Positions 18,901 through 34,766 of a stretch of 34,882 nucleotides of DNA are shown here, in pieces. Under the pieces are notes generated by a model. The model saw only the letters and a list, made by a program, of their open reading frames with translations, had not been told where the DNA came from and ran no database searches. A program made the position numbers and the translations under genes. The stretch's first letter is position 1. Each line of letters begins with the position of its first letter. The stretch comes from Vulcanimicrobiota bacterium (lineage in GTDB: Bacteria > Vulcanimicrobiota > Vulcanimicrobiia > Vulcanimicrobiales > Vulcanimicrobiaceae), in NCBI GenBank assembly GCA_003158195.1, contig PMHP01000131.1, positions 1-34,882 on the forward strand, in the 5' to 3' direction.

Positions 18901-18951
18901 ATGGTGACTTCCAGGAGACGCACACCGGGCGCCCAAGTGCGAGCGCTGACG

Positions 18952-21039
18952 ATGAGCACATCCGGCCTCCCCGTTTCGGCCGCCCGCGTCGCCGCACGAT
19001 ACCTCCCGCACCAGTCCCCGGAGCAACTCGACGCGCTGCTGCGCTGCTTCGATCTTGCCGTTTTGCGCCGCCGGCTGGCGGTCGCCGGCCTCTGTCCCGA
19101 GTCGGCAGGCGATGACGCGCTCCTCGAAGCGTACTTCACGCGCGACGACTGCGCCCGCATTTCGCCAAACGAGCTCTTCAATGAGACGTGGTACCGTTCG
19201 CATTACCCGGACGTTGCGGCTGCGGCCGCAGCCGGCGGAACGAGCGGTTTCGTTCACTTCATCGCGCACGGCTGGCGAGAATCGCGCTGGCCGACGCAGA
19301 CGCTCTACGTTGCCGGCACGGGAGGCGATCCGCACAAGACGTTGACCGCACTCGACGAGACGGAATACGTGGCGTTGAATCCGGCCGCTCGTGCGTTCCT
19401 CGAGGCCTTCCCCGTGCTGACCGCGACCGAACACTACAACCTGTACGGGCGCTTCCTCCATCTCACCGCAAGCACCGCCGCGCGCACGCCCGTGGTCGAC
19501 GCGCGCAGCGCGCTCGTGGCCATGCTGGAAAGCGAATTCGATCCGGCATTCTACGCCGACGCCTATCTGAAAGGCGCGTCACCCGAGGATCTCGCCGACC
19601 CGTTTCGCCATTACCTGACGGTCGGAATCGAGCGCGAGCATTCACCCAATCGCTGGTTCGAGGAGGACTGGTACCGCGCGTTCTATCCGGACGTCCGCTC
19701 GGCGATTCCGCGCGACGTGCTCTGCGGTTTCCACCACTATCTGGCCCGCGGCCGCCGCGAGGGGCGTCTGCCGCGTTTCGATTTGACGGCGGCGCTCGAG
19801 GCGAAACTTCCCGGCGTCACCGCTCCCGTGCTGATCGGGCGAACGCAAGACCTTCGTTACCGTATCTACGGTGCGCGCAGTCTGCGCGCGTTCCGGCGCC
19901 GCGGGGCGCCCGAGCGCGGCACCGTGTGGTTCCTGCTCCCGACGCTCAATCCCGACATCTCATTCGGCGGCTACCAAGCCGCTTTCGAGTTGATCCGAGC
20001 GCTGCGGGCAGCCGGCCGCGAGGTCGCGATCTATTGCACCGAAGATGCCGGTGCCGACAAAGGCTACTTTCTTTGGCGCGAACATTCGGAAAAAATTCGT
20101 GCGGCGTTCGAAAACATTTCGCTCCTCGGACGCGACGAGGATCATCGGATCGGGATCGGACCGAACGATCGCGTGGTCGTGTATTCGGTTTGGGACCTCT
20201 TTCGTGCTGCGCCGCTCGCCGAGTGGACCGACTTGGGGCGCCCGTTTCTGCTCGCGCAGGAGTACGAGCCCGTCTTCTTCGACAACTCGTCGAGCAAGGC
20301 GCTCTGCCACGAGGCCTACAGCGTGCCGCACTATCCGATCATCAACAGTCGCCAGTTGCGTGATTATTTCCGCGCCCACCGGGTCGGCGTCTTCGCCGCC
20401 GACGACTGCGAAGAGATCGAGCACTACGCCCTCTTCGAGCATCGCATCAATCAGTTGCCGCGGCAAACGGTCGCTTCGATGAGCGCCCGGACCCGCAAGA
20501 TGTTCGCGCTCTACGCGCGCCCCGAGCTACACGCGTCGCGCAACTTGTTCGAAATAACCCTGCTCGCACTGCAAAACCTCTGCGCGCGCGACGTCTTCGG
20601 CGACGAATGGTCCTTTGTCGGGATCGGCGCGCTCTCCGACGTGCCGCCGATCGACCTCGGCGGCGGGCACCGCCTCGCGTTGCGCCAGCGCACGACCGAG
20701 CAAGAGTATCGCGAGATGCTCCAATCGCTCGACATCGGCGTCAGCATGATGTACGCGCCGCACCCGGGCGTCGTGGCGCTCGAGTTCGCGACGACCGGCG
20801 CCCTGGTTGTCACCAACGTGTACGAGAACCGGAGCGCGGACGAACTGGAGCGCCTTTGCGCCAACATCATTCCCTGCGAGCCGTCACTGCGCGACCTCGA
20901 GCGCGCGATCGCCCAGGCCGTCGCGGCCTCGGTCGACCACGCAGCACGCGAGCGCAACGCCTACCGGCCGGTGCTGCGCTCGTGGGACGAAATCTTTTCC
21001 CGCGACTTTGTCGAACGTGTTTTCCGCCTGGATGCGTAA
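18952..21039 (+). CDS. WsaF-like rhamnan-type glycosyltransferase with N-terminal WYRxxYPDV repeats
   Basis: This protein of about 695 residues has an N-terminal region with three repeats of the locus-typical WYRxxYPDV / HYLxxGxREGR kind: ETWYRSHYPDVAAA, FDPAFYADAYLKG and EEDWYRAFYPDVRSA. A GT-B glycosyltransferase follows from about residue 320 (GTVWFLLPTLNPDISFGGYQ; then QEYEPVFF; then HPGVVALEFATTGALVVTN near the end). This arrangement matches WsaF-type rhamnosyltransferases. I prefer ATG at 18952 because the longer frame from 18901 adds 17 Arg-rich residues abutting the divergent promoter; neither start has a strong ribosome site. It opens a plus-strand operon that continues into the acyl ligase with an eight-base overlap. 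Confidence 0.8.
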   Translation: MSTSGLPVSAARVAARYLPHQSPEQLDALLRCFDLAVLRRRLAVAGLCPESAGDDALLEAYFTRDDCARISPNELFNETWYRSHYPDVAAAAAAGGTSGFVHFIAHGWRESRWPTQTLYVAGTGGDPHKTLTALDETEYVALNPAARAFLEAFPVLTATEHYNLYGRFLHLTASTAARTPVVDARSALVAMLESEFDPAFYADAYLKGASPEDLADPFRHYLTVGIEREHSPNRWFEEDWYRAFYPDVRSAIPRDVLCGFHHYLARGRREGRLPRFDLTAALEAKLPGVTAPVLIGRTQDLRYRIYGARSLRAFRRRGAPERGTVWFLLPTLNPDISFGGYQAAFELIRALRAAGREVAIYCTEDAGADKGYFLWREHSEKIRAAFENISLLGRDEDHRIGIGPNDRVVVYSVWDLFRAAPLAEWTDLGRPFLLAQEYEPVFFDNSSSKALCHEAYSVPHYPIINSRQLRDYFRAHRVGVFAADDCEEIEHYALFEHRINQLPRQTVASMSARTRKMFALYARPELHASRNLFEITLLALQNLCARDVFGDEWSFVGIGALSDVPPIDLGGGHRLALRQRTTEQEYREMLQSLDIGVSMMYAPHPGVVALEFATTGALVVTNVYENRSADELERLCANIIPCEPSLRDLERAIAQAVAASVDHAARERNAYRPVLRSWDEIFSRDFVERVFRLDA

Positions 21040-22672
21040 CGTGCTGAGCGCCCTCTACGAGCACGCTGCCGCCGCGCCGATGCGGCCGGCCCTGCTGTTC
21101 GTCAAGCAGAACGAGTACCAGCAGTTTACCTACGAGGATCTGCTGCGCGAGAGCGAGCGCTGGGCGTCGACCTTCGCGAATCAGGGCGTTGAAGCGGGCC
21201 AGATCGTTGCGATCGTGCTCGGCCACCGCTACGAACTCTATCCGGCGTTTCTCGGCGCCATGCGGGCCGGAGCGATACCGACGTTCCTGCCGTATCCGAC
21301 TTCGAAGCAGGATCCGGACTTGTATTGGCGCGGCCAGGCCGAACTTTTCGCGCGCGTACGGCCGGCCTGCGTGATCGCGCACGCGGCGATCTTGCCGCGC
21401 ATCCGGGAGCTGACCGCGGGCTTTGCGTGCGCGCTCGTCGACGTCGACGAACTCGGCTCGCCGGCGGCCTCCGCCGTTCTACCGCCGCTCGAAGCGGTCG
21501 AAACCCGCGACCGGGTCGCGCTCCTGCAACACAGTTCGGGTACGACCGGAGCGAAGAAGGGCGTCGCGTTGACGTTCGGGACGATTGCGGACCAAAACGC
21601 CGCGCATGCGGCGGCACTTGAAGCATCGCCCCGAGACCTTACCGTTTCGTGGCTCCCGCTGTATCACGACATGGGGCTGATCGCAGCATTTCTCTTTCCG
21701 ATCTCGCTCGGCAGCTGCGTCGTTTCGCTTGACGCTTTCGAGTGGCTGCTGCGGCCGGCATCCCTGTTCGAAGCGATCGAGCACTACCGGGCGACCCACA
21801 CCTGGCTCCCGAACTTTGCGTTCAATCATCTCGTGCGCACGCACGACCCGTCCCGCACGTACGACCTGTCCTCGATGCGCGCGTTCGTCAACTGCTCGGA
21901 GCCGTGCAAACCCGCAACGTTCGAAGCGTTCGGGACGGCGTTCGCAGCCTCGGGCGTGACCGGCGCGATGCTGCGCACCTGCTACGCGATGGCCGAGACG
22001 GTCTTCGCCGTCACGTTGAGCCCGCCGCGAAGCGAGCCCCGGACGCTCGCGGTCGACCCCGAGGCCCTGCGCACGCGTGACGAAGCCGTCACGCCGCTGG
22101 GTGAGGGCCTAACGTTCGTTTCGTGCGGCACGCCGCTCGACGGCGTCGAGCTGCGGATCGTGGCCCACTCGGGAGCCAACGTCGGCGAGATCCAGCTTCG
22201 CGGACGTTTCGTCTTCTCCGAGTACTACGCCAATCCAGAGGCGACGGCCCAGAGCTTCGACGGCGGCTGGTACAAGACGGGCGACATCGGCTTCCTCTAC
22301 GAAGGCGAGCTCTACGTCTGCGGGCGGCGCAAGGAAATGCTGATCGTTCACGGCCAAAATTTCTATGCAAGCGACGTCGAAGCCGTCGCAAGCGAGGTCG
22401 CGGGCGTCAAACCCGGGAGGGTCGCCGTGTTCGCGGTATTCGACGAGAGCGTGGGAAGTGAGGAGGCCGTCGTCCTCGCAGAAACCGCGTTCGATGACGA
22501 AACGAGCCGGCTCGATCTCATCCGCCGCATCCGCGCCGACGTCTACAGCCGGCTCGGCCTGCAAGTCCGGACCGTCGAACTCCGCGCCCCGGGCGAACTC
22601 GTGAAAACGACGAGCGGCAAGATGAGCCGCGACGAGAACCTCCGGCGCTACGCAGCCGGTCCCGTGCCGTGA
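21032..22672 (+). CDS. Fatty-acyl-AMP ligase (FAAL-like)
   Basis: This 546-residue adenylate-forming enzyme should activate a carboxylic acid as acyl-AMP and load it on the carrier protein encoded next. Motifs are the phosphate loop LLQHSSGTTGAKKGV, WLPLYHDMGLIAAFLFP (a FAAL hallmark), TCYAMAETVFAV, GWYKTGDIGFLYEGELYVCG, GRRKEMLIVHGQNFYASDVE and the C-terminal lysine loop LVKTTSGKMSR. ATG at 21032-21034 overlaps the previous stop; GTG at 21041 is an alternative. Its stop overlaps the ACP start as GTGA. No ketosynthase or peptide-synthetase module is nearby, so the acyl group is more likely used directly, on the glycan. Chain length cannot be read from the sequence. Confidence 0.88.
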   Translation: MRNVLSALYEHAAAAPMRPALLFVKQNEYQQFTYEDLLRESERWASTFANQGVEAGQIVAIVLGHRYELYPAFLGAMRAGAIPTFLPYPTSKQDPDLYWRGQAELFARVRPACVIAHAAILPRIRELTAGFACALVDVDELGSPAASAVLPPLEAVETRDRVALLQHSSGTTGAKKGVALTFGTIADQNAAHAAALEASPRDLTVSWLPLYHDMGLIAAFLFPISLGSCVVSLDAFEWLLRPASLFEAIEHYRATHTWLPNFAFNHLVRTHDPSRTYDLSSMRAFVNCSEPCKPATFEAFGTAFAASGVTGAMLRTCYAMAETVFAVTLSPPRSEPRTLAVDPEALRTRDEAVTPLGEGLTFVSCGTPLDGVELRIVAHSGANVGEIQLRGRFVFSEYYANPEATAQSFDGGWYKTGDIGFLYEGELYVCGRRKEMLIVHGQNFYASDVEAVASEVAGVKPGRVAVFAVFDESVGSEEAVVLAETAFDDETSRLDLIRRIRADVYSRLGLQVRTVELRAPGELVKTTSGKMSRDENLRRYAAGPVP

Positions 22673-22926
22673 CCGACCCCGCGTTCGAGACGGCCGTGAT
22701 TGCGATCGTCGCCGACACGTTCTCGATCGACCCGGCCACGGTCGGACGGCATACGACCGCCGACGACGTGGAAGGCTGGGATTCGCTCGGACACTCCGTG
22801 CTGCTCGCGCGACTCGGGCAGAAGCTGCGCATCGAGATCGGCGAACAGATCGCGATCGAGCCGAAAAACGTCGGCGAACTCGTCGACCGGTTAGCGCACG
22901 AGCGCGCACGCGTCAGCGATGATTGA
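22669..22926 (+). CDS. Stand-alone acyl carrier protein
   Basis: This 85-residue four-helix carrier has the phosphopantetheine site in EGWDSLGHSVLLARL (Ser39), preceded by TTADDVE. It lacks any fused catalytic domain. The sequence differs from a housekeeping fatty-acid AcpP (WDSLGHS rather than the usual DSLDxVEL), typical of specialised carriers paired with AMP ligases. GTG at 22669-22671 overlaps the ligase stop and its own stop overlaps the SGNH gene by eight bases, so all three are tightly coupled. It needs a phosphopantetheinyl transferase, not present in this window. Its likely role is to hold the acyl group between ligase and transferase. Confidence 0.9.
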   Translation: MTDPAFETAVIAIVADTFSIDPATVGRHTTADDVEGWDSLGHSVLLARLGQKLRIEIGEQIAIEPKNVGELVDRLAHERARVSDD

Positions 22927-24367
22927 GCGTGAGGGAAAGGTCCGCGGGGTCCTCGAGGGGCGCGGCGGCCGGCTCTTCCTCGGCGATCAAGACGGGTTCG
23001 CCCTCGACTGGTTCTTGAGCGCAAAACCCTTCAACCGCTCGCTGCTCGAAGTCTGGAAACGCACCCTGCGACGCCGCGCGCGCGAACTCAAACGGCGTGG
23101 AATACCCTATATCTTCTACCTCGCGCCCGACGCACATTACGTCTACCCCGAGGACCTGCCCGCGGGGCACGAAGCCGCCGCCGGCCAGACCCCTCCGGGG
23201 ACGACGTTTCTTGGGTTCATGAGCGAGCTGAAGGACATCGCCTTCGTCGACCCGCGGCCCGATTTGCTTGCGGCCAAAGGGGCGCTCGAGATCTACCGCA
23301 AGACCGACTCGCACTGGACGCAGTACGGCAGCTTCATCGCCTACAAGACCTTGTGCCGGGCGCTCCAAGGGGTCGTCCCCGTCTCCGAGTTGCAGGCCCG
23401 CGACGTCGCTTTCGAATACCGGCGGTTTTTCGGCGACCTCGGCGTCTTGGTCGAGCCCGAACGCAGCGAGGAGACCGTGCGCGCGCGGACCGCTCGCAAC
23501 CCCTACGTGCGCATCTATGAGAACGACGGCTTCGACCGCACCGGATGTTTTGAAACCCTCGCTGCCGACGCCATCGCAACGCGCGTGCTGCTCTTTCGCG
23601 ACTCGTTCATGACCGATCAGTTCGATTACATCGGGCGCAGCTTCCGGCACGTGCTCTGCGCGGGTACGACCACGAGCCTGTTCCTCGACGAGATCGACGC
23701 GTGGAAGCCGCGCGCCGTCATCTCGCACGTCGGCGAGCGCCGCCTCTACTCCTACGAACTCGATCACCGGCAAGATACGTTCGACGACGTCTTTCGGACG
23801 GATTTCGGTTCGCCGCGCGGCCGCTTGGCCCAGAAAGCGATGCTGCTCTTGGGCGCGCGGCGGCCGGCCGATGCGCTCGCGCACATCACGGAATTCGAGG
23901 CGGATCCCGCGCTGCGCCCCGACCACGCCTACGTAGCCGCGCAAGTGCTGCGCGCAAATAGCCTCGACGAGCGCGCGTGGGCAGCCGTCAACGTCGCGCT
24001 GCGGTCCTATCCGACGCGCCCGTCGTATCTCTCACTCGCCGCGAAGATTCAGCTGGCGCTCGGCGGCCTGCGCGAAGCGCTCGATTTGGTCGGCCGTGCG
24101 CTCGAGACCGCGTCGTACAACGGCCACTACCACGAAACGTTCTGCTACCTCCTCTTGGCCAAGGGTGAAGCCGCTGCGGCCCGGCGCTATCTCGATGCGG
24201 CGCTCGTCGAGATCGACGACTACGGCGTTCTGTGGTACCTTCAAAGCCTGGCTTGTGAAGCGCTCGGCGATCGCTCGGGAGCGATCGATGCAATCGTGGA
24301 GGCCTTGCGCCTCGACTCGAACGAAGCGACGTTCCAGACGCAAGCGATCAAACTTTGGGGGACATGA
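22919..24367 (+). CDS. Cytosolic AlgX/AlgJ-like SGNH acyltransferase with C-terminal TPR-like repeats
   Basis: The 482-residue protein has RLFLGDQDGFALDWF at the start and YRKTDSHWTQYGSFIAY at about 126-142. The D130/H132 pair fits the DxHW motif of alginate O-acetylation proteins. LLFRDSFMTDQFDY at about 224-237 carries the GDSF-type serine (S229). All three catalytic positions are therefore present. Residues from about 310 form helical TPR-like repeats (ALDLVGRALETASYNGHYHE). There is no signal peptide or TM segment, unlike AlgX, AlgJ or DltD, which implies action in the cytoplasm. Sitting directly after an acyl ligase and ACP, it is best read as a transferase that moves the ACP-bound acyl group to a glycan intermediate. 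An esterase role is possible. Confidence 0.8.
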   Translation: MIEREGKVRGVLEGRGGRLFLGDQDGFALDWFLSAKPFNRSLLEVWKRTLRRRARELKRRGIPYIFYLAPDAHYVYPEDLPAGHEAAAGQTPPGTTFLGFMSELKDIAFVDPRPDLLAAKGALEIYRKTDSHWTQYGSFIAYKTLCRALQGVVPVSELQARDVAFEYRRFFGDLGVLVEPERSEETVRARTARNPYVRIYENDGFDRTGCFETLAADAIATRVLLFRDSFMTDQFDYIGRSFRHVLCAGTTTSLFLDEIDAWKPRAVISHVGERRLYSYELDHRQDTFDDVFRTDFGSPRGRLAQKAMLLLGARRPADALAHITEFEADPALRPDHAYVAAQVLRANSLDERAWAAVNVALRSYPTRPSYLSLAAKIQLALGGLREALDLVGRALETASYNGHYHETFCYLLLAKGEAAAARRYLDAALVEIDDYGVLWYLQSLACEALGDRSGAIDAIVEALRLDSNEATFQTQAIKLWGT

Positions 24368-25719
24368 CCTACGACGCCGCGACCGACGCCGTCAGCGGAC
24401 GGTTCGAGTCGGCCGCCGCGTATCCGCAACCGACCGTGACGATCGATTGCGACGGGGTGCCCTGGGCAACCGTCGCGGCCGTACCGATTGCCGAGCAGCC
24501 GGGCGCGTTCGCGTTTTCCTGCGCGCTCGGTCCAGTTGCGCAGCCGACGCGGTCCTCGGTCGTCGCGCGCGAATGGAACGGCAAGCCGGTGGCAGCCGAG
24601 AGCGTCATGCGCGAACCGCTGCGCAACGCTCTCGGCCTACTCGCAAGCGACGTTCTTGCGACCGACCACCATCCATTTTCAGCACTGCCGTGGATCACGC
24701 TGAGCGGCGCGCGCCTGACGGTCACCGGCATGCATCTTCCGCCGGAAGGCGACCCGGGGAAACTTTCGATCGCATTTGGCCCCGGCGTCGCATACGATCT
24801 CGCCTACGGTTTGGCTTCTCCTGATTTTCGCGAGCAGTACTGGTATTGGCCGAACGCCGATCAGTCGGGCCTCATCCTCACGATCGATCTCGCCGCTTGC
24901 GCCAGGGGTTCGGACCCGTTCCATTTTCGCTTCGTCTACCCCGCGGCGAGGAACTTGGGGGGCGGAAAACGCCCGATCGACGTCTGGCTGCCGCGCAGTT
25001 TCGAATCGCTCATGGGATTTCCAACCGATTCGGCATTGCTCCGGCGCGTGCAATTCTTTTCCGACTCCGCCTCCGCTGCGATCACGGGATACAACGCATT
25101 CGAGACGCTCGCCGCGCTGTTCGCAAAAGCCGGGATCGAAGCGGACTCGGGACCGCGCCTTTTGGACTGGGGTTGCGGACACGGCCGCGTCACGTGCCAT
25201 TTCATCGATCGCTGGCCCGCGGCACATATCTGCGGCGCCGACATCGACGCCGAAAATATCACGTGGTGTCGCGAGCACCTTCGCGGGAGCTTCCGGGTGC
25301 TTCCACTTTGGCCACCATCCGATTTCCCCGATGCGTCGTTCGACGCGATCTTCGGGATCTCGGTTCTGACGCATTTGACGTCGGACGCGCAAGAGGCGTG
25401 GCTCGGGGAGTTGGCCCGCATCCTGCGGCCGGGAGGCGTGGCGCTGCTAACGTTTCAAGCCGATGCGAACGCGGCCTATCAGTCGCGCTGGCGCGACCCG
25501 GACTGGTGGTCGCGTTGGCGCGAACGCGGCTTTGACGACGAACAGTTCGATCCGGCGCTCGAAGGGTCGATCTCCGACCCGACGTACTATCGCAACACGA
25601 CGCAATCGAGCGACGACTTCCGCCGCAAGTGCGATCCCTATTTCGAGCTGATGACGATCGAGCCGGCGGCCTTCGGCGGTTACCAAGACTGTGCGGTTTT
25701 GCGGAGGCGCACGCCGTAG
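24364..25719 (+). CDS. SAM-dependent methyltransferase with unrecognised N-terminal domain (copy 1)
   Basis: This 451-residue protein is paralogous to the next gene. The C-terminal class-I methyltransferase has motif I LLDWGCGHGRVTCHF (about residue 265), the acidic GADIDAENITWC, FDAIFGISVLTHLT and LARILRPGGVALLTF. The N-terminal 240 residues are different: a beta-rich start (VTIDCDGVPWATVAAVP), then HPFSALPWITLSGARLTVTG and HLPPEGDP, an aromatic YWYWPNADQSG and DPFHFRFVYP. I do not know this domain; it may bind the sugar. ATG at 24364 overlaps the SGNH stop (ATGA). The probable role is O-methylation of the glycan or its end. Confidence 0.85.
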   Translation: MTYDAATDAVSGRFESAAAYPQPTVTIDCDGVPWATVAAVPIAEQPGAFAFSCALGPVAQPTRSSVVAREWNGKPVAAESVMREPLRNALGLLASDVLATDHHPFSALPWITLSGARLTVTGMHLPPEGDPGKLSIAFGPGVAYDLAYGLASPDFREQYWYWPNADQSGLILTIDLAACARGSDPFHFRFVYPAARNLGGGKRPIDVWLPRSFESLMGFPTDSALLRRVQFFSDSASAAITGYNAFETLAALFAKAGIEADSGPRLLDWGCGHGRVTCHFIDRWPAAHICGADIDAENITWCREHLRGSFRVLPLWPPSDFPDASFDAIFGISVLTHLTSDAQEAWLGELARILRPGGVALLTFQADANAAYQSRWRDPDWWSRWRERGFDDEQFDPALEGSISDPTYYRNTTQSSDDFRRKCDPYFELMTIEPAAFGGYQDCAVLRRRTP

Positions 25720-27074
25720 TGGACGAACGCATAGCTCTGGACGGCCGCCTGCGTTTGGACGATGCCGACGTCTTATCGGGGACGTTCCCCGCGGCAGCCG
25801 AAAAGCAGGTCACCATCTACCATCGAGGCGCGCGCTGGGCAGGCGTACCGGCACGAATCGACGCCGCGGGGGGCGCCACGTTCTCGTGCCAGCTGCCCCC
25901 GGTGCGCGAGCCGTGCGAGGCGACGATTGAGGTTCGCGACGCGTCCGGCGAACGCGTTTTCGAACGCGAAGTCTTCAGCAGAAAACCGCGCGTCAACGGC
26001 TATGGCCTGAGTGCGTACGATGTGTTTGCGCTCGCGCATCCGCCGCTCAACTCGATTCCCTGGTTGACGTTCGACGGCGTGCAGCTGCGCATTGGCGGCG
26101 GTCATCTTCCGCCGGGCGGCGACCCTTCGAGCCTCTCGGTTCGGTTCGGGCCGGGCGTCGTCTACACGTTCGAATACCCGCTTCCGTCGCCGGGCTGGGA
26201 TGACTACTACTGGTATTGGCCCAATGCCGCCGGCTCGAATCTGACGATTACGATCGATCTCTTAGCGTCCCGCTTCGATGCGGATCCGTTCCACTTCGCG
26301 TTTGTCGAGACGAAGGACGGTGAGACCAAAAAGCTCTCCGATATATGGCTTCCGGGCGATCTCCATTCGTTCTTGAGCCTCACGTCCGACGTCGCAAAAA
26401 TCGAGCGCGTTCAGCGCGGTCAGGATGCCCACAGCATCGTCTTGCCCGGGTATTCGCACTTTCGCTACCTCGAATCGCAGTTTGCGCGGTTCGGGATCGT
26501 CGACGCCCCCGGCGTCTCGATTCTCGATTGGGGCTGCGGCGTCGGGCGCCTGAGCGCGCACTTCGTGAGGCAGTGGCGGCGCGCGCGGACGTTCGGCACC
26601 GACATCGATGCCGACAACGTGCGCTGGTGCGCGGCGACCTTGGGTGAGGATCGTTTCGCGGTCGCTCCGCTTTGGCCGCCGGCGAGCTATCCTGACGAGA
26701 CCTTCGACGGCGTGTTCGGTGTCTCGGTCATGACGCATCTGACGGCGGATGCGCAGGCAGCCTGGCTCGGCGAGCTCGCGCGCATCCTCAAACCCGGCGG
26801 CATCGCCCTGCTTACGTTCGCCGGCCCTGCCGGTACCGCTGCCGGCTCACTCTGGCGCAGCGCGGCGTGGTGGAAGGCCTACTCGACCAGTGGATTCGAT
26901 GCCGAGATCCGCGACGCCGCGCTTGAGGGCTTCATCGCAGATAGCGATTACTACCGTCAGACCAACCAAACGCACGCCAACGTCACGGCGACCTGGTCGC
27001 GGCACTTCGAGGTGCTCGAAACGATCGAGGCCGCGTTCGGAAACCAGGACCTGGCGATCCTCCGGAAGCGCTAG
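25719..27074 (+). CDS. SAM-dependent methyltransferase with unrecognised N-terminal domain (copy 2)
   Basis: This gene is also 451 residues and collinear with copy 1 throughout: HPPLNSIPWLTFDGVQLRIG, GGHLPPGGDPSSLSVRFGPG, YYWYWPNAAGS, DPFHFAFVE, then ILDWGCGVGRLSAHFV, GTDIDADNVRWC, FDGVFGVSVMTHLT and LARILKPGGIALLTF. GTG at 25719-25721 shares one base with the copy 1 stop (TAGTG). The two differ at many positions, so this is an old duplication and the enzymes probably modify different positions or residues. The C-terminus YYRQTNQTHANVT matches YYRNTTQSSDDFR in copy 1. The gene converges on the small coiled-coil gene with a three-base overlap at CTAG. Confidence 0.85.
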   Translation: MDERIALDGRLRLDDADVLSGTFPAAAEKQVTIYHRGARWAGVPARIDAAGGATFSCQLPPVREPCEATIEVRDASGERVFEREVFSRKPRVNGYGLSAYDVFALAHPPLNSIPWLTFDGVQLRIGGGHLPPGGDPSSLSVRFGPGVVYTFEYPLPSPGWDDYYWYWPNAAGSNLTITIDLLASRFDADPFHFAFVETKDGETKKLSDIWLPGDLHSFLSLTSDVAKIERVQRGQDAHSIVLPGYSHFRYLESQFARFGIVDAPGVSILDWGCGVGRLSAHFVRQWRRARTFGTDIDADNVRWCAATLGEDRFAVAPLWPPASYPDETFDGVFGVSVMTHLTADAQAAWLGELARILKPGGIALLTFAGPAGTAAGSLWRSAAWWKAYSTSGFDAEIRDAALEGFIADSDYYRQTNQTHANVTATWSRHFEVLETIEAAFGNQDLAILRKR

Positions 27075-28296: not shown

Positions 28297-30171
28297 GTGT
28301 CGTCTGAGCGCGAGCCCGATCGGATTGTTTCCGTAGCGCGCGCACTTCACGAGCGCGTTCGGGTCATGGAAGCAAGCCGGTTTTGGAAGCTGCGCAATCT
28401 CTGGCACGGCCTCAAGGCGCGACTCCGGCTCTCGAACGGCGCGCTGCCGCCGTATCCGCCGCTCGAAAACCTCGTGCGCACCGCGCCCACCTACGAAACG
28501 TGGCGCGAGCGCAACGCTCCCCGTCCGAGCGACGTCGCGCGCATGCGCGAGCACTCCACCGCGCTACGCTTTCAATCCCTCATCAGCGTCGTCGTGGCGA
28601 CCTACAATACCCCCGAGCGCTATCTGCGGGCGATGCTCGAGTCCGTTTTCGCGCAGGCCTACGAGCGTTGGGAACTTTGCATCGCCGACGACGGCTCGAG
28701 GCTGCCCGAGGTCGCCGTGGTGCTGCGCGAGTACGCGGCTCGCGATCCCCGCGTGCGCGTCCTTTTCCGCACGGAGAACGGACACATCTCCCGCGCAATG
28801 AACTCGGCGCTGTCGCTCGCTTCAGGGGAGTTCGTGGCGTTCGTCGATCACGATGACCTGTTGACGCCCGACGCATTGTACGAGGTCGCGGCCGCACTCG
28901 GGCGCCGGCCCGAGACCGACATCGTGTATTCCGACGAAGACAAGATCGACGACGCCGGGAACTTTACCGAACCGCATTTCAAGCCCGACTGGTGTCCGGA
29001 ATCATTTCTCTCGCGGATGTACGTCGGCCATCTGCTCGTCTGCCGGAGAGCGGCGGTCGAGGCGGCAGGCGCTTTTCGTTCGGATTTCGACGGAAGCCAG
29101 GACTACGATCTGGTCTTACGACTGAGCGAGCGCACCGACCGTATCGTCCACATCCCTCGCGTCCTCTATCACTGGCGCGTCCACGCGGCATCGACCGCCG
29201 CGGCGGCGGACGTCAAGTCGTACGCGCGCGAAGCGGCCGTGCGCGCGCTCAACGCCGCGCTCGAGCGGCGCGGCGAAATCGGTAAGATCGAAGCGCTGCC
29301 CGATTCGCCGGGCGTCTACAGCGTGCGGTTCGAAATCGGTCAGCTGCTGCGCGTGAGCGTCATCGTCCCGACCCGCGATCACGGCGCGGAGGTCGACCGG
29401 TGTCTGAAAGCTGCGCTCGCTCACACCGCGTATCCCAACCTCGAGGTCATTCTGGTCGACAACGGCTCGACGGACGTTGCCTCGCTCGAGCTGTTCGCGG
29501 CGTTCGCCGCTGCAGACCCGCGCATTACCGTCCTGCGCTTGGACGAGCCGTTCAATTTCTCCAAACTCAACAACGAAGCGGTCGCGCGTTCGAGCGGAGC
29601 GTATCTGCTCTTTCTCAACAACGATACCGAGCCGATCAGCGACGGGTGGATCGAGTCGCTCGTGGAACACGCGCAGCGCCCCGCGGTCGGCGCGGTCGGC
29701 GCCCTGCTGCTGTATCGCGACGACACCGTTCAGCATGCCGGCGTCGTGCTCGGGCTCGGCGGGGTCGCCGGTCACAGCCACAAACACTTTCCCGCGGGCG
29801 CCCCCGGCTACTTCCACATGCTGCGTGCGGTCAACAACTACTCTGCCGTAACGGCCGCCTGCATGATGGTGCGCCGCGAAGTCTTCGTGCGCGTCGGCGG
29901 CTTCGACGAATCCCTCGCGGTCGCGTTCAATGACGTCGATTTTTGCCTGCGCGTGCGCGACGCGGGCTTTCGCAACGTCTACCTTCCGCACGTCGTCCTG
30001 TACCACGATGAGTCGAAATCGCGCGGGCCCGAGACCCTACCGGGCAGCGTCGAGCGCTTTCGAGGGGAAATCGAGACGATGAAGCGGCGCTGGCCCGTGC
30101 TCGCTTCGGGTGACCCGTGTTATAACCCCAACTTGACCCGCGATCGCGAGGATTTTTCGATCGGTCCGTGA
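28297..30171 (+). CDS. Tandem-domain family-2 glycosyltransferase
   Basis: This 624-residue cytoplasmic enzyme has two GT-A domains. After an N-terminal helix with MEASRFWKLRNLW (about 24-36), domain 1 has SVVVATYNTPERYL, IADDGSR (about 129-135), FVDHDDLL (182-189) and IVYSDEDKID. Domain 2, from about residue 348, has VSVIVPTRDHGAEVD, LVDNGST, PFNFSKLNNEA, LFLNNDTEPIS and VGGFDESLAVAFNDVDFCLR. Both DxD-type metal sites look intact, so it could add two sugars or build a disaccharide repeat. GTG at 28297-28299 is the start. Its stop is five bases from the convergent glycosyltransferase that has the same architecture; the two are paralogues. Confidence 0.9.
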   Translation: MSSEREPDRIVSVARALHERVRVMEASRFWKLRNLWHGLKARLRLSNGALPPYPPLENLVRTAPTYETWRERNAPRPSDVARMREHSTALRFQSLISVVVATYNTPERYLRAMLESVFAQAYERWELCIADDGSRLPEVAVVLREYAARDPRVRVLFRTENGHISRAMNSALSLASGEFVAFVDHDDLLTPDALYEVAAALGRRPETDIVYSDEDKIDDAGNFTEPHFKPDWCPESFLSRMYVGHLLVCRRAAVEAAGAFRSDFDGSQDYDLVLRLSERTDRIVHIPRVLYHWRVHAASTAAAADVKSYAREAAVRALNAALERRGEIGKIEALPDSPGVYSVRFEIGQLLRVSVIVPTRDHGAEVDRCLKAALAHTAYPNLEVILVDNGSTDVASLELFAAFAAADPRITVLRLDEPFNFSKLNNEAVARSSGAYLLFLNNDTEPISDGWIESLVEHAQRPAVGAVGALLLYRDDTVQHAGVVLGLGGVAGHSHKHFPAGAPGYFHMLRAVNNYSAVTAACMMVRREVFVRVGGFDESLAVAFNDVDFCLRVRDAGFRNVYLPHVVLYHDESKSRGPETLPGSVERFRGEIETMKRRWPVLASGDPCYNPNLTRDREDFSIGP

Positions 30172-30176
30172 GCCGC

Positions 30177-31967
30177 TCATTCCGCGAGCGACCCGCTTTC
30201 GTCGGCTCGCGTTAAGTTCGGGTTGTAATACGGATCCTCGAAGCGTTCCGTCGCCCAGGTCCCGCGAAAAAGACTGCGCTCGCGTTCGCGCGCGGCGCGC
30301 TCGGGCCCCGTCTTTGGGGAACCGCGCGAGACCGATTCTTCGTGCCGAAAAGAAACGTGCGGCAAGCAGAGGTTCGAGTAGCCGGCGCGCACGAGCTTCA
30401 AACAGAAATCGAGGTCGTTGAATTCAATCGAGAGCGCTTCGTCGAACCCGCCGACGGCCTCGAATGCGTCGCGCCGGAACATCATCGCGGCCGCGGTGAC
30501 CGCGGTAAAGTTCCGAACGCCAACGATTGTCTCGTCGAGGGCCGGATCGCCGGGCCGTCTTCCGCGGTACAGGTGACCGGCGTACCCCCCGATCCCGACG
30601 ACGACGCCGACGTGTTGCAGCGTTCCGTCGGGATAGAGCAGCCGTGCTCCGACCGCGCCGACGCAGGGCCGTTGCGCTTGTTCGAGCATCGCCTCGATCC
30701 CGCCAAGAGACAAGAACTCGGCGTCGTTGTTGAGCAACAGCACGTACGGGCCATCGGTCGACCGGACGCCGGCGTTGACGAGACGCGAGAAATTGAACGG
30801 ACCCTCGACCCGCACGACCGCGAAGCGCTTGGGCTCGCGCGCCTTCCAGCGCTCGAATGCGGCGAACGTCGCCGGGCTAGCGCTGTCGTTGTCGACGACC
30901 GTCACGCGAAGATCGGCGCCGGGGTTGCGCTCGAAGACGCTGCTTAAAGCGCGCTCCAAGTAGTCCGCTAAGTCCCGCGTTGGAATCACGACCTCGACGC
31001 GGCCAGGCCGGACGATGTCGTAACGCACGATCGCAACGCCCGCGACGTCCGCGCGTACGACGTGGCCGGACTCGCCGCGACGTACGAGCGCGGCCTCGAC
31101 CGCGCGCGCCGCTTCCTGCGCATCGCCGTCCGTTTCGCCCGACCCCCGCAGGTGGTGAACCAGCACCGCAGGCCGGTGCAGGATCGGGCCTCCGTTTTCG
31201 AAGACGCGCAGCGCGAGGTCGTAGTGGCCGGCATTCCCAAATTCACTACGCATGCCGCCGGCCGCAAGGACCGCGGTCCGGCGGTAAAACACGACGCGCC
31301 CGGTGTACATCGACGACAGGAACGTGTCCGGCGACCAGCCGGGGACGAAGCGCGGCAGCAGTCTTCTGCCGCCGGCGTCTTGCTGGTCGCGGTCTCCGTA
31401 CATTGCGACGAGGTTCGGAGCTGCGTTGACGGCGAGCGCGAGTTCGAATGCCGCTTGAGGCCCGAGCAGATCGTCCGGTTCGCAAAGAGCGACGAAGTCT
31501 TCGGTCGCTCGGGCGACCGCGGCATTCCAGCGCGCCGCGATGTCCGCGCCCGAATGTTCCGAGAGCTGCACGAGACGAACGTGGGGATAGGCTTGAGCTC
31601 GAACGGCCGCGAGCGCCGCGCTCGCGTCGCAACCGCAGTCGTTCACGATAACGGCCAGCGTCGGGCGCAGCGACAGCAGCGGCGCGATCTCGCGCATCCG
31701 CGCGAGTTCCGCGCGCCGCGGTTCATTCTCGAGCAGCCAGCGCGTATACGGATCGGACCGATCCATCGTTTCGAAATAATCGAGGGAGGGCAGCTCCGGA
31801 GGGTCGATCGGGCGCACCCGCCCGAAGCGGGCGCGAAGGCGCAGCCAAAGCGCGCGAAGCTGCCAAAACCGGCTGCCTTCGACGAACTCCAAGCGCCGCC
31901 GCATCGCGCGGACGACGCGCTGCAAGGCCACGATGTGCGCCGCGGCATCGTCGAGATCGGGCGGCAT
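30177..31967 (-). CDS. Tandem-domain family-2 glycosyltransferase with degenerate first domain
   Basis: This 596-residue paralogue of the convergent gene has an N-terminal helix with EGSRFWQLRALW (about 30-41). Domain 1 (about 103-330) reads LAVIVNDCGCDASA where the paralogue has SVVVATYN, has lost the DDGS motif (VQLSEHSG instead) and has YGDRDQQD for YSDEDKID, although CEPDDLL remains. It may therefore be structural. Domain 2 keeps VEVVIPTRDLADYLE, VVDNDSAS, PFNFSRLVNAG, LLLNNDAEFL and VGGFDEALSIEFNDLDFCLK. ATG at 31965-31967 follows the ABC ATPase stop by eight bases; the longer frame upstream is out-of-frame ATPase sequence. It is last in the exporter operon. Confidence 0.88.
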   Translation of the reverse strand: MPPDLDDAAAHIVALQRVVRAMRRRLEFVEGSRFWQLRALWLRLRARFGRVRPIDPPELPSLDYFETMDRSDPYTRWLLENEPRRAELARMREIAPLLSLRPTLAVIVNDCGCDASAALAAVRAQAYPHVRLVQLSEHSGADIAARWNAAVARATEDFVALCEPDDLLGPQAAFELALAVNAAPNLVAMYGDRDQQDAGGRRLLPRFVPGWSPDTFLSSMYTGRVVFYRRTAVLAAGGMRSEFGNAGHYDLALRVFENGGPILHRPAVLVHHLRGSGETDGDAQEAARAVEAALVRRGESGHVVRADVAGVAIVRYDIVRPGRVEVVIPTRDLADYLERALSSVFERNPGADLRVTVVDNDSASPATFAAFERWKAREPKRFAVVRVEGPFNFSRLVNAGVRSTDGPYVLLLNNDAEFLSLGGIEAMLEQAQRPCVGAVGARLLYPDGTLQHVGVVVGIGGYAGHLYRGRRPGDPALDETIVGVRNFTAVTAAAMMFRRDAFEAVGGFDEALSIEFNDLDFCLKLVRAGYSNLCLPHVSFRHEESVSRGSPKTGPERAARERERSLFRGTWATERFEDPYYNPNLTRADESGSLAE

Positions 31968-31975
31968 CTGCCGGC

Positions 31976-32773
31976 TCAGTGCGTTTCGAGCAGACCGGCG
32001 CCGAGGCCGGCCCGATAGTCGCTTTCGGCTAGCGCCAACTGGTACGCATCGACGACGCGCTCGGGCGTACCGGCCACGCGCAGCGAGCCGCCGTCGATCC
32101 AAAGCGCCGAATCGCACCAGTGCGAGATCGCGCCCGTGTCGTGCGACACGAGCACGATCGTTCTGCCTTGCCGTTTGAACTGCCGCATCCGCTCGAGGCA
32201 TTTCGCAATGAATGCCGCGTCTCCGACCGCCATCACCTCGTCGAGCAACAGTACGTCGGGATCGATGCTGACTGCGACCGCGAACGCGAGCCGCATGTAC
32301 ATTCCCGACGAATACATGCGCACCGGCACGTCGACGTAGTCGCGCAGTTCGGCGAAATCAACGATCTCGTCGATGCGGCGTTCGATCTGCCGCGGGCTCA
32401 GACCGAGGATCAGCCCGTTCATCTTAACGTTTTCGCGTCCGCTCATGTCCGGATGGAACCCGAGCCCAAGGCTGAGCAGCGGCGCAACCGCGCCGCCCAG
32501 GTTGATCGAGCCGGAATCGGGTGTGTAGATGCCTGCTAAGAGCCGCATCAGCGTCGATTTCCCCGAACCGTTGCGCCCGAGAATACCGAGCATCGAACCC
32601 CGCGAGACGGAGAAACTGACGTCGCGCACGGCGTCGACGAACAGTTCGTTGGCGCGCCCGTTCGTAAAGAACTGCCCTTTGACGAGCGCCTCTTTGAGCG
32701 TCGTCTGCTTGGGAATCCGCACGAGTCGGAAACGTTTCGAGACGTTTGTGACGACGATCGCCTGCTCGTTCAT
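31976..32773 (-). CDS. wzt: ABC transporter ATPase for polysaccharide export (Wzt/KpsT-type, short form)
   Basis: This 265-residue ATPase energises export of a finished, lipid-linked glycan across the inner membrane. It has the Walker A GILGRNGSGKSTLMRLLAGI (about 63-82), the polysaccharide-exporter feature LLSLGLGFHPDMSGRENV, the signature YSSGMYMRLAFA, the Walker B VLLLDEVMAVGD and the switch histidine in LVSHD. It ends about 25 residues after the ATPase core, so the C-terminal carbohydrate-binding domain of long Wzt proteins (about 400 residues) is absent. Its stop precedes the tandem glycosyltransferase by eight bases, and its start overlaps the permease stop (ATGA). Substrate selection by a capped terminus is therefore less certain than in long-Wzt systems. 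Confidence 0.92.
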   Translation of the reverse strand: MNEQAIVVTNVSKRFRLVRIPKQTTLKEALVKGQFFTNGRANELFVDAVRDVSFSVSRGSMLGILGRNGSGKSTLMRLLAGIYTPDSGSINLGGAVAPLLSLGLGFHPDMSGRENVKMNGLILGLSPRQIERRIDEIVDFAELRDYVDVPVRMYSSGMYMRLAFAVAVSIDPDVLLLDEVMAVGDAAFIAKCLERMRQFKRQGRTIVLVSHDTGAISHWCDSALWIDGGSLRVAGTPERVVDAYQLALAESDYRAGLGAGLLETH

Positions 32774-33537
32774 GCGTAGTCCGCGAAGGCGTGTTTGTAC
32801 CGATTGAACACCCGGCGCCCGATCGCGCAGAAAAAGAGCGCCGCGGCCAGCGCGTAGGCCGTCAGCAGAGCACTCGGCAAGCGATCGTAGTAGAAGATGT
32901 TCTGGTAGCCGAGGACGAGCGGGACCATCGGGTCGATGAAGAGGAACGGCCGGATGCGCTCCGGCACCGACGTCAGGGGATAAAAGATCGGCGCTAAATA
33001 GAAGGCGAGACCCAAAATCGTGACCATCAATTGCTGGAGGTCACGGTAGAAGACGTTGAGCGTCGCGAGGCTGAGCAAGATGCCGAGCGTCAGCAGCGCC
33101 TGGATTGCGATCAACACGGGCAAGGTTACGATCGGCCAGCCGACCGGCACGCCAAAAAAGGCGGCGACTGCAAGCAGCAGCGGAACCGACAGCAGATAGT
33201 TGATTCCGTTCGAGAGAATCGGCACGAAAATAAGGATGGCCGGTTCGAAAATCGCGCGTCCAACGTAGGTTCGGCCGTCGACGACGCTCGACGCACCGGC
33301 GCTGATGGCGCTCGCAAACCAGAGCCACGGCAGCAATCCCGAAACAAGGAAAACCGCGTAGTGCGGAATCGGCAGCCGCAGGTAGACCGAGAACACCAGG
33401 GTGTAGACGAGCATCGCGAGCAACGGATTGAGAAACGTCCAGGCGAATCCGAGCACCGAGCCGCGATATCGCAGGGTCAGCTCCCGAACGGTCAACTCGT
33501 AGAGCAGCCAGCGATACCGATAAACCGATTGAACCAA
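32770..33537 (-). CDS. wzm: ABC-2 type polysaccharide export permease (Wzm-type)
   Basis: This 255-residue inner-membrane permease starts VQSVYRYRWLLYELTVRELTLRYRGSVLGFAWTFLNPLLA, shown here in overlapping sense: the amphipathic RELTLRYRGSVLGFAW element precedes the first TM. About six TM segments follow, with FLVSGLLPWLWFASAI and FYLAPIFYPLTSVP typical of O-antigen and teichoic-acid exporters. The start is TTG at 33535-33537; no ATG or GTG fits. The stop overlaps the ATPase start (ATGA). With the ATPase it forms one half-transporter pair that dimerises in the membrane. It lies 44 bases behind a glycosyltransferase gene on the same strand, so the four genes are one operon. Confidence 0.9.
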   Translation of the reverse strand: MVQSVYRYRWLLYELTVRELTLRYRGSVLGFAWTFLNPLLAMLVYTLVFSVYLRLPIPHYAVFLVSGLLPWLWFASAISAGASSVVDGRTYVGRAIFEPAILIFVPILSNGINYLLSVPLLLAVAAFFGVPVGWPIVTLPVLIAIQALLTLGILLSLATLNVFYRDLQQLMVTILGLAFYLAPIFYPLTSVPERIRPFLFIDPMVPLVLGYQNIFYYDRLPSALLTAYALAAALFFCAIGRRVFNRYKHAFADYA

Positions 33538-33581: not shown

Positions 33582-34766
33582 TTAACGGTCATTCGGACCC
33601 AAACAGAATTGTCCGTTTGGCTTCGTCGCGCCGGCGAGGGTCTTCACGCCCCGTGAATCGAGAAGTTGGAGATAGAGCGCGAGGGTCCGATCGCCGAGTG
33701 CGAGGGCGTCGAAGCGGTGGGCTACGGCCGTCATTTTGGCCGGGTCGAGCGGGCCGCGCCCGAGCGCGCGCTCCAGGGCCGCGGCCAGTGCTCGCGGGTC
33801 GCTGCCGACGATCTCGGCCACGCCGTCGAGCACGTCGCGCGTCTGCGGCGTGTCGACCGCGACCACGGGCGCGCCTGCGGCGAGCGCCTCGACCAGGACG
33901 AGCCCTTGCGTCTCGCTGCTACTCGTAAAGAAAAAGACGTCGGCACTTGCGTAAGCGTCGGGCAGAGCGCTGCGCTCGAACTCGCGCGCAAAGATCGTTT
34001 GCGCCGCGACCCCGGCTCGAGCCGCGAAGCGCTCTAGCGCCTCGCGATGCGTGCCGTCCCCGACGATCACCATGCGCGCTGTCGGGTCGCCGAGCAAGGC
34101 AAAGGCTTCGATGCCGAGTTCGAGGTTTTTCTCTCGCCCGAGCCGGCCGACGCACAGCACCATCTTCTCGCCGGGCGCAACGCCGAGCCGCGCGCGCAAC
34201 GCTTCGCTCCTGCGGCCGCGCGAAAAAAATGAGACGTCGATACCGCTCGGAATCACTTCGATCCGCGTCCGTACGCCGAGCGCGCGCAGACGCTGCTCCA
34301 TCGACGCCGTGGGTACGATCACCGCATCGGCGGCGTTCGCATACCCGCGCGTCAGCTGCGTCGCGGCGCTTCGCGTGGCGCGCGCCTCGAACGGTACGTA
34401 GTGCGCGTATTCTTCCAATTGCGTGTGATAGGTGAAGATTAGCGGCACTTGCGCGCGGCGCGCCGCACGCGTTCCGAGCCAACCGGTGACAAACGGCGAG
34501 TGCGTGTGAACGATCGAGAGTTCGCCGAGCGCGCGCGGCAGATACGGTACCGTAAGCCGGTAAGCCGTTCGTGTCGGCAACGGCAACGACGGAACGCGCA
34601 CGACGCCGTCGTCGACGTCGTGGAAACCCGGCATCTCCGGCGTAACGAAAAGCACTTCGTGACCGCGCGCACGCAGCGCAAACCCGAGGCCGTCGAGCGA
34701 TGCGACGATGCCGTTTCGAATCGGATGATAACACTCCGTGAATAAGGCGACGCGCAAGGTACTCAC
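33582..34766 (-). CDS. Family-4 glycosyltransferase (GT-B)
   Basis: This 394-residue enzyme resembles the diacylglycerol glucosyl- and mannosyltransferase (MgtA/Pim-like) branch of GT4. It has VALFTECYHPIRNGIVASLD, PEMPGFHD, VHTHSPFVTGWLG, TYHTQLEEYAHYVP, VIPSGIDVSFF, LCVGRLGREKNLELGIEAF, VGDGTHREALE, and the EX7E region FTSSSETQGLVLVEALAAG. The HTHSPF and YHTQLEEY motifs are typical of lipid-directed members, so it may start the glycan on a lipid or modify a glycolipid. GTG at 34764-34766 is the start, downstream of a TTGACA promoter. It is the first gene of the operon with wzm, wzt and the tandem GT2. Confidence 0.9.
   Translation of the reverse strand: MSTLRVALFTECYHPIRNGIVASLDGLGFALRARGHEVLFVTPEMPGFHDVDDGVVRVPSLPLPTRTAYRLTVPYLPRALGELSIVHTHSPFVTGWLGTRAARRAQVPLIFTYHTQLEEYAHYVPFEARATRSAATQLTRGYANAADAVIVPTASMEQRLRALGVRTRIEVIPSGIDVSFFSRGRRSEALRARLGVAPGEKMVLCVGRLGREKNLELGIEAFALLGDPTARMVIVGDGTHREALERFAARAGVAAQTIFAREFERSALPDAYASADVFFFTSSSETQGLVLVEALAAGAPVVAVDTPQTRDVLDGVAEIVGSDPRALAAALERALGRGPLDPAKMTAVAHRFDALALGDRTLALYLQLLDSRGVKTLAGATKPNGQFCLGPNDR

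Follow-up and report, generated by a model that had tools for sequence, protein, structure and literature searches.

In the DltA-DltC-DltB-DltD system, an adenylating ligase (DltA, specific for D-alanine) and a carrier protein operate together with the MBOAT protein DltB and with DltD, an SGNH protein that is membrane-anchored and extracytoplasmic. The O-acetyltransferases AlgX, AlgJ and PatB1 also have an MBOAT partner, and their site of action is outside the cytoplasm (PMC9487903). In the Vi-antigen system, the O-acetyltransferase TviD recruits TviE through its C-terminal TPR region, and VexE is a soluble UDP-GlcNAc acyltransferase with a TPR domain that depends on acyl-acyl carrier protein (acyl-ACP) and acts before ABC export (PMC9597891). 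WcbI (PF18588), a capsule biosynthesis protein solved as 4bqn/4bqo, binds coenzyme A (CoA) and has Cys14 and His201 close to where the acyl group lies; on its own it showed no activity, and a missing partner has been proposed by its authors (PMC4104973). Here we analysed a 34,882-base stretch of DNA (the window; bases 1-34882 of the 38,674-base contig PMHP01000131.1) from a 79% complete metagenome-assembled genome (MAG) of a Vulcanimicrobiota bacterium, GCA_003158195.1, in which genes for a fatty acyl-AMP ligase (FAAL)-type enzyme, a stand-alone ACP and a soluble SGNH protein with a C-terminal TPR region overlap within a glycan-export locus. We consider it reasonably probable that these genes form a cassette for acylating a glycan in the cytosol, one that is fed by a carrier protein and in which the transferase can be exchanged (WcbI, SGNH-TPR or GNAT).

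Ligase, ACP and soluble SGNH protein are encoded by overlapping genes

The cassette comprises three genes:

21032..22672, plus strand: FAAL-type enzyme, 546 aa (PF00501, NCBIfam and FAAL structures in the PDB)
22669..22926, plus strand: stand-alone ACP, 85 aa, with a GWDSLGH motif and Ser39 (PF00550, 2lml and alignment)
22919..24367, plus strand: soluble AlgX/AlgJ-clan SGNH protein with a C-terminal TPR region, 482 aa, proposed acyltransferase (PF16822)

The gene calls and coordinates of an earlier, sequence-only reading, which had taken these for three coupled genes, proved correct, and the coupling is wider than it had claimed. The ligase and ACP genes overlap by 4 nt and the ACP and SGNH genes by 8 nt; the ligase gene also overlaps the preceding gene for a WsaF-like glycosyltransferase (8 nt), and the SGNH gene overlaps the following gene for methyltransferase 1 (MT1; 4 nt). 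From WsaF through ligase, ACP, SGNH and MT1 to a second methyltransferase gene (MT2), every junction overlaps, by 1-8 nt.

As judged by its matches, the ligase is of the FAAL type, closer to FAALs than to CoA ligases. It matches PF00501 (E 3e-52), and its closest PDB structures are all FAALs (7r7e, 3kxw, 6ulx and 3pbk; E 1e-49 to 1e-51), with the best CoA ligase well behind at E about 1e-25. It also matches NCBIfam models of fatty-acid ligase subfamilies, scoring 333 bits with PRK07768 and 290 bits with PRK09192 (fatty acyl-AMP ligase), in both cases below the curated cut-off. Two measurements bear, not decisively, on the FAAL-specific insertion: the protein is nearly collinear with 7r7e, CoA ligases being 20-32 residues shorter across the aligned spans, and its A5-to-TGD spacing of 98 compares with one of mostly 102-106 for FAAL relatives and of 87 for a Mesorhizobium ligase.

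FAALs usually prime polyketide synthases (PKS) or non-ribosomal peptide synthetases (NRPS), and the best PDB relatives of the ligase come from such priming enzymes, which would fit a ligase and ACP that belong to a polyketide or peptide pathway elsewhere, their place in a glycan locus being accidental. We regard this as very improbable: in relatives, orthologous FAAL-ACP pairs are found in glycan loci alongside WcbI, GT2 glycosyltransferases and ABC exporters, and the 79% complete MAG yielded one ketoacyl-synthase match and not a single condensation domain. The PKS or NRPS partner named by the sequence-only reading as a possible objection did not appear there.

The ACP scored 20.4 bits against PF00550, just below the cut-off of 20.8 bits. 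Among solved structures it comes closest to 2lml, a putative ACP (E 4e-7), which we take to be a specialised ACP of the GmACP3 type, and it is through this match that the window ACP resembles that type. A role in lipopolysaccharide has reportedly been proposed for GmACP3, a Geobacter ACP, going by the title of the 2011 report of Ramelot et al. Ser39 is invariant in 14 aligned ACPs of orthologous cassettes, in which the GWDSL-H motif is also conserved.

By its profile matches the third protein belongs to the AlgX/AlgJ SGNH clan (PF16822): residues 40-193 match the AlgX family with 53.8 bits (curated cut-off 26.5 bits), and a profile built from its SGNH relatives matches the AlgJ, PatB1 and AlgX structures. 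In a 14-sequence alignment H132 and S229 of the triad are invariant and D130 is nearly so. These profiles and alignments bear out what had been read from the letters, namely a FAAL-type ligase, an ACP with Ser39 and an AlgX/AlgJ-like protein with a D130/H132/S229 triad. The C-terminal TPR region is a weak match in Pfam (ANAPC3, with an E of 3e-4, short of the cut-off) and is clear in the predicted structure and by Foldseek; the AlphaFold model, made from six sequences with a mean pLDDT of 57, was used for the TPR region only.

No signal peptide or transmembrane (TM) segment was found on the SGNH protein. Hydropathy is low throughout, and the Kyte-Doolittle maximum over the first 70 residues (19-residue span) is 0.44, compared with 2.2-2.9 in most MBOAT-linked relatives. 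The open frame upstream of the ATG at 22919 extends for 8 codons or fewer and, because it closes so soon, no signal peptide has been missed, in keeping with the earlier description of the protein as soluble. Its same-phylum relatives share 23-32% identity with it over the matched part; where their neighbourhood was read, they adjoin an MBOAT gene and mostly carry an N-terminal TM segment. The window protein has neither. Further SGNH matches in the phylum are weak, and those inspected sit with MBOAT genes. A search of genome contigs returned only five Clostridia homologues (21-31% identity), unlinked to ACP cassettes. Two loci from another family of the phylum (L024 and L025) contain four tandem SGNH genes beside MBOAT genes.

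The absence of an MBOAT, also claimed earlier, held within a bounded locus: a search of the genome's contigs found none on the 38.7-kb contig, where the glycan genes are enclosed by housekeeping genes, on the left aroF/aroH-type shikimate genes among others and on the right a gene read as ksgA. A neighbouring MBOAT and a missed signal sequence, two of the three objections foreseen by the sequence-only reading, were thus not borne out. In this 79% complete MAG the sole MBOAT match so far, an 865-aa protein on contig C224 (L020:136-2733), lies among putative housekeeping genes and has a long N-terminal region of SGNH-like appearance. Ligase-ACP modules adjoining an MBOAT do occur (Sulfitobacter L090 and L071), and the C224 protein might in principle complete a Dlt-like pathway in trans across the membrane. 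Of the explanations considered we hold this to be the least probable, given the housekeeping surroundings of the C224 gene, the SGNH-like region that its product already carries and a window SGNH protein with no TM segment or signal, unlike most MBOAT-linked SGNH partners.

The window cassette is thus neither a Dlt system nor an alginate-type system. It shares with Dlt an adenylating ligase, a carrier protein and an SGNH protein; it differs in having no MBOAT on the contig and no DltX that we could see, in an SGNH protein without the membrane anchor and extracytoplasmic location of DltD, and in a ligase that best matches FAALs rather than being D-alanine-specific like DltA. With AlgX, AlgJ and PatB1 it shares a homologous SGNH domain and triad, in a protein that is soluble, TPR-tailed and encoded beside FAAL-ACP. 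The architecture of the window protein, a cytoplasmic SGNH domain followed by a C-terminal TPR region, matches that of TviD, the two being likened by architecture and not by sequence. We take TviD itself to have an SGNH fold, and we know of no FAAL or ACP in its locus. The likeness to VexE lies in soluble acylation from acyl-ACP before ABC export; VexE differs in its LPLAT fold, and no dedicated FAAL has been described for it. The distinction from the Dlt and alginate systems drawn by the sequence-only reading therefore stands, and the isolation that it gave the cassette was overstated, because the Vi capsule already offers cytosolic use of acyl-ACP and TPR-bearing O-acetyltransferases in VexE and TviD (PMC9597891). 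The cassette reads as a cross of Dlt loading and TviD/VexE-type cytosolic acylation, a member of neither.

FAAL-ACP-WcbI cassettes in the same family

Orthologues of the ligase (41-46% identity) occur in 14 further genomes of the same family, giving a comparative set of 15 loci (L064-L070 and L072-L079). FAAL, ACP and WcbI genes are contiguous in 12 of the 15 (L064, L066-L070, L072-L074, L076, L078 and L079). In the remaining three, an ACP-WcbI pair lies about 5 kb from the ligase (L077), FAAL-ACP has no neighbouring WcbI or SGNH (L075), and a FAAL, belonging to a second copy in genome G025, lies near an MBOAT (L065). WcbI was present in 13 of the 14 genomes with the ligase and in 4 of the 133 without it (Fisher p 2.3e-14, a value that ignores shared ancestry and so overstates independence); across the phylum, 18 of 148 genomes matched the WcbI model. 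Homologues of the exporter proteins Wzm/Wzt were found in the fetched stretch of 8 of the 15 loci, and homologues of the window's double-GT2 glycosyltransferase recur near FAAL-ACP cassettes (L068-L070, L072-L074, L076, L078 and L079). By these comparisons the conserved unit is FAAL plus ACP, and its third gene is usually WcbI.

In one of these loci (L066:6573-8237, genome G025, contig C6) a Wzt-like ATPase carries WcbI as a C-terminal fusion, with PF00005 at residues 52-181 and PF18588 at residues 267-467, and the fusion gene adjoins a convergent FAAL-ACP pair. The fusion is a direct physical tie of WcbI to export. In five loci (L068, L069, L074, L076 and L079) WcbI genes occur in tandem, one encoding GNCQ or GDCQ and the other lacking the Cys (GDAQ, GDIQ or GDAL), which suggests one catalytic and one non-catalytic copy.

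WcbI had no match in the window MAG, where the place that it takes beside FAAL-ACP elsewhere is held by the SGNH-TPR gene; since the genome has no WcbI match, the SGNH-TPR protein appears to fill the WcbI slot. WcbI was also considered as a hidden relative of the SGNH protein, an idea that found no support in sequence, profile-profile comparison giving a probability of 0.1 and no homology. The linkage of FAAL, ACP and WcbI makes acyl-ACP a candidate partner or donor of WcbI. In the open-licence literature (subscription papers were mostly not covered) we found no link of WcbI with FAAL or ACP, and none of SGNH, FAAL and ACP with one another in glycan export. The FAAL-ACP-WcbI cassette is conserved and apparently undescribed.

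Relatives on plasmids and a possible independent acetyl donor

Plasmid loci contain other arrangements of the same kinds of gene. On a Niveispirillum plasmid (L086:6813-11293) an FkbH-like loader, an ACP, WcbI and a MaoC/SDR protein are encoded consecutively, which may represent another loader feeding ACP-WcbI. A Mesorhizobium plasmid (L033) carries an ACP with an AMP-ligase and a GNAT protein in a polysaccharide locus, and a Sulfitobacter plasmid (L090:7381-11047) carries an AMP-ligase-ACP fusion beside an MBOAT and a TM protein of DltD-like appearance, probably a membrane version of the same loader-carrier logic. Loaders, carriers and transferases are thus found in several different combinations. 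Among the listed neighbours of ligase matches on Leptolinea, Methylobacterium and Cupriavidus plasmids there was no SGNH or WcbI.

Soluble AlgX-like SGNH proteins also occur in polysaccharide loci that have no FAAL or ACP, in E. coli, Thioclava and Phyllobacterium (L026), the last with a TPR tail; the loci of the E. coli and Thioclava plasmids are of capsule type. Those on plasmids, annotated as hypothetical proteins, are:

L027:7560-8882: soluble AlgX-like SGNH protein, E. coli
L028:7590-8780: soluble AlgX-like SGNH protein, E. coli, with ABC exporter genes listed in the locus
L092:6467-7918: soluble AlgX-like SGNH protein, Thioclava, with ABC exporter genes listed in the locus

These loci bear on the main rival explanation, in which the SGNH protein uses acetyl-CoA independently, as its FAAL-less plasmid homologues may. 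One operon would then make two modifications: FAAL-ACP would feed some other enzyme, such as a glycosyltransferase or MT1 and MT2 through their N-terminal regions, and the SGNH-TPR protein would be a TviD-like cytosolic O-acetyltransferase drawing on acetyl-CoA or another small donor. TviD, an O-acetyltransferase with a TPR tail (PMC9597891), provides a precedent, and the FAAL-ACP pair of L075, with no adjoining WcbI or SGNH, is likewise consistent with this explanation. We judge it possible, if on balance doubtful: the ACP and SGNH genes share 8 nt, the latter standing where WcbI usually lies beside FAAL-ACP, and no acyltransferase family other than SGNH was identified among the locus genes scanned.

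Proposed function of the cassette

We infer every catalytic step, including the acyl chain, the acceptor and the transfer from ACP to SGNH, as follows. The FAAL-type ligase, from its family, would adenylate a carboxylic acid and load it onto the phosphopantetheine of the dedicated ACP. The SGNH domain would accept the ACP-bound acyl group at S229 and, still in the cytosol, hand it to a hydroxyl group on the growing glycan or on a sugar-nucleotide or lipid-linked precursor. By analogy with TviD, the TPR tail may dock the SGNH protein onto the ACP, onto a glycosyltransferase or onto the exporter complex, and the acylated, probably methylated chain would leave through Wzm/Wzt. In relatives FAAL and ACP are retained and WcbI would be the transferase, in one case fused to Wzt. 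Soluble, MBOAT-free, carrier-dependent acylation before ABC export, as the sequence-only reading had proposed, would best account for the locus. The narrower proposal, that an AlgX-clan SGNH protein takes its acyl group directly from a FAAL-loaded carrier in the cytosol before ABC export and is interchangeable with WcbI and GNAT, acyl-ACP being the possible missing partner or donor of WcbI, we hold with about even confidence.

An esterase or thioesterase in the cytosol that edits acyl-ACP or trims the glycan, with no transferase activity, would also fit an SGNH fold, many SGNH enzymes being hydrolases and AlgX and AlgJ weak esterases in vitro (PMC9487903). We think this unlikely, since the specific relatives AlgX, AlgJ and PatB1 are O-acetyltransferases and cassette relatives place WcbI, a putative transferase, in the same slot.

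Several observations weigh against carrier-fed acylation by the SGNH protein. The sequence-only reading had presented FAAL-ACP-SGNH as a system of its own and proposed a search for conserved MBOAT-free triads; a scan of 149 genomes of the phylum, and of plasmids, found no second FAAL-ACP-SGNH-TPR triad, leaving the SGNH-TPR version in the window genome only. In the FAAL tree the window ligase is divergent and unresolved near the base, not firmly within the WcbI-associated clade, and the structure model of the SGNH protein is of low confidence. WcbI could be encoded elsewhere in the organism, as the MAG is 79% complete. Because WcbI and SGNH share no sequence homology, their equal role rests on gene position, and because soluble SGNH proteins occur where there is no FAAL or ACP, the window protein could use another donor.

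The cassette nevertheless looks real and modular. Its parts are ordinary and their combination is unusual, the SGNH version being a singleton among the genomes and plasmids searched. If carrier-fed acylation is correct, AlgX-clan SGNH acyltransferases need not act across a membrane with an MBOAT or AT3 partner and can be fed by a carrier protein within the cell. For WcbI, which since 2013 has had a structure but no demonstrated reaction, the cassette provides a concrete donor hypothesis, FAAL-loaded ACP, and gene order alone would suffice to predict acylated polysaccharides in an uncultured lineage.

Surrounding genes and a phage match

The locus also encodes several glycosyltransferases together with a Wzt-like ATPase and a Wzm-like permease, the components of ABC export:

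18937..21039, plus strand: WsaF-like glycosyltransferase, first of the overlapping run (PF22772 WsaF_C, E 2.6e-35)
24364..25719, plus strand: methyltransferase MT1 (PF13649 and PF08241 at residues about 260-365)
25719..27074, plus strand: methyltransferase MT2, laid out like MT1 (PF13649 and PF08241)
28297..30171, plus strand: double GT2 glycosyltransferase (PF00535, E 3e-53)
30177..31967, minus strand: GT2 glycosyltransferase (PF00535, E 4e-22)
31976..32773, minus strand: Wzt-like polysaccharide-export ATPase with no C-terminal domain (PF00005; NF050108 galactan export Wzt, 218 bits, below the cut-off of 400 bits)
32770..33537, minus strand: Wzm-like ABC-2 permease with about 7 TM segments (PF01061, E 1.4e-9)
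33582..34757, minus strand: GT4 glycosyltransferase, last glycan gene before the putative ksgA (PF13439 and PF00534)

MT1 and MT2 (24364-27074) have in common a long N-terminal region of about 250 residues with no family match. A weak AlgX-like SGNH match (23%, E 3e-6) was also found in Pseudomonas phage JBD44 (NC_030929, 28678-29370), where the gene possibly serves surface modification.

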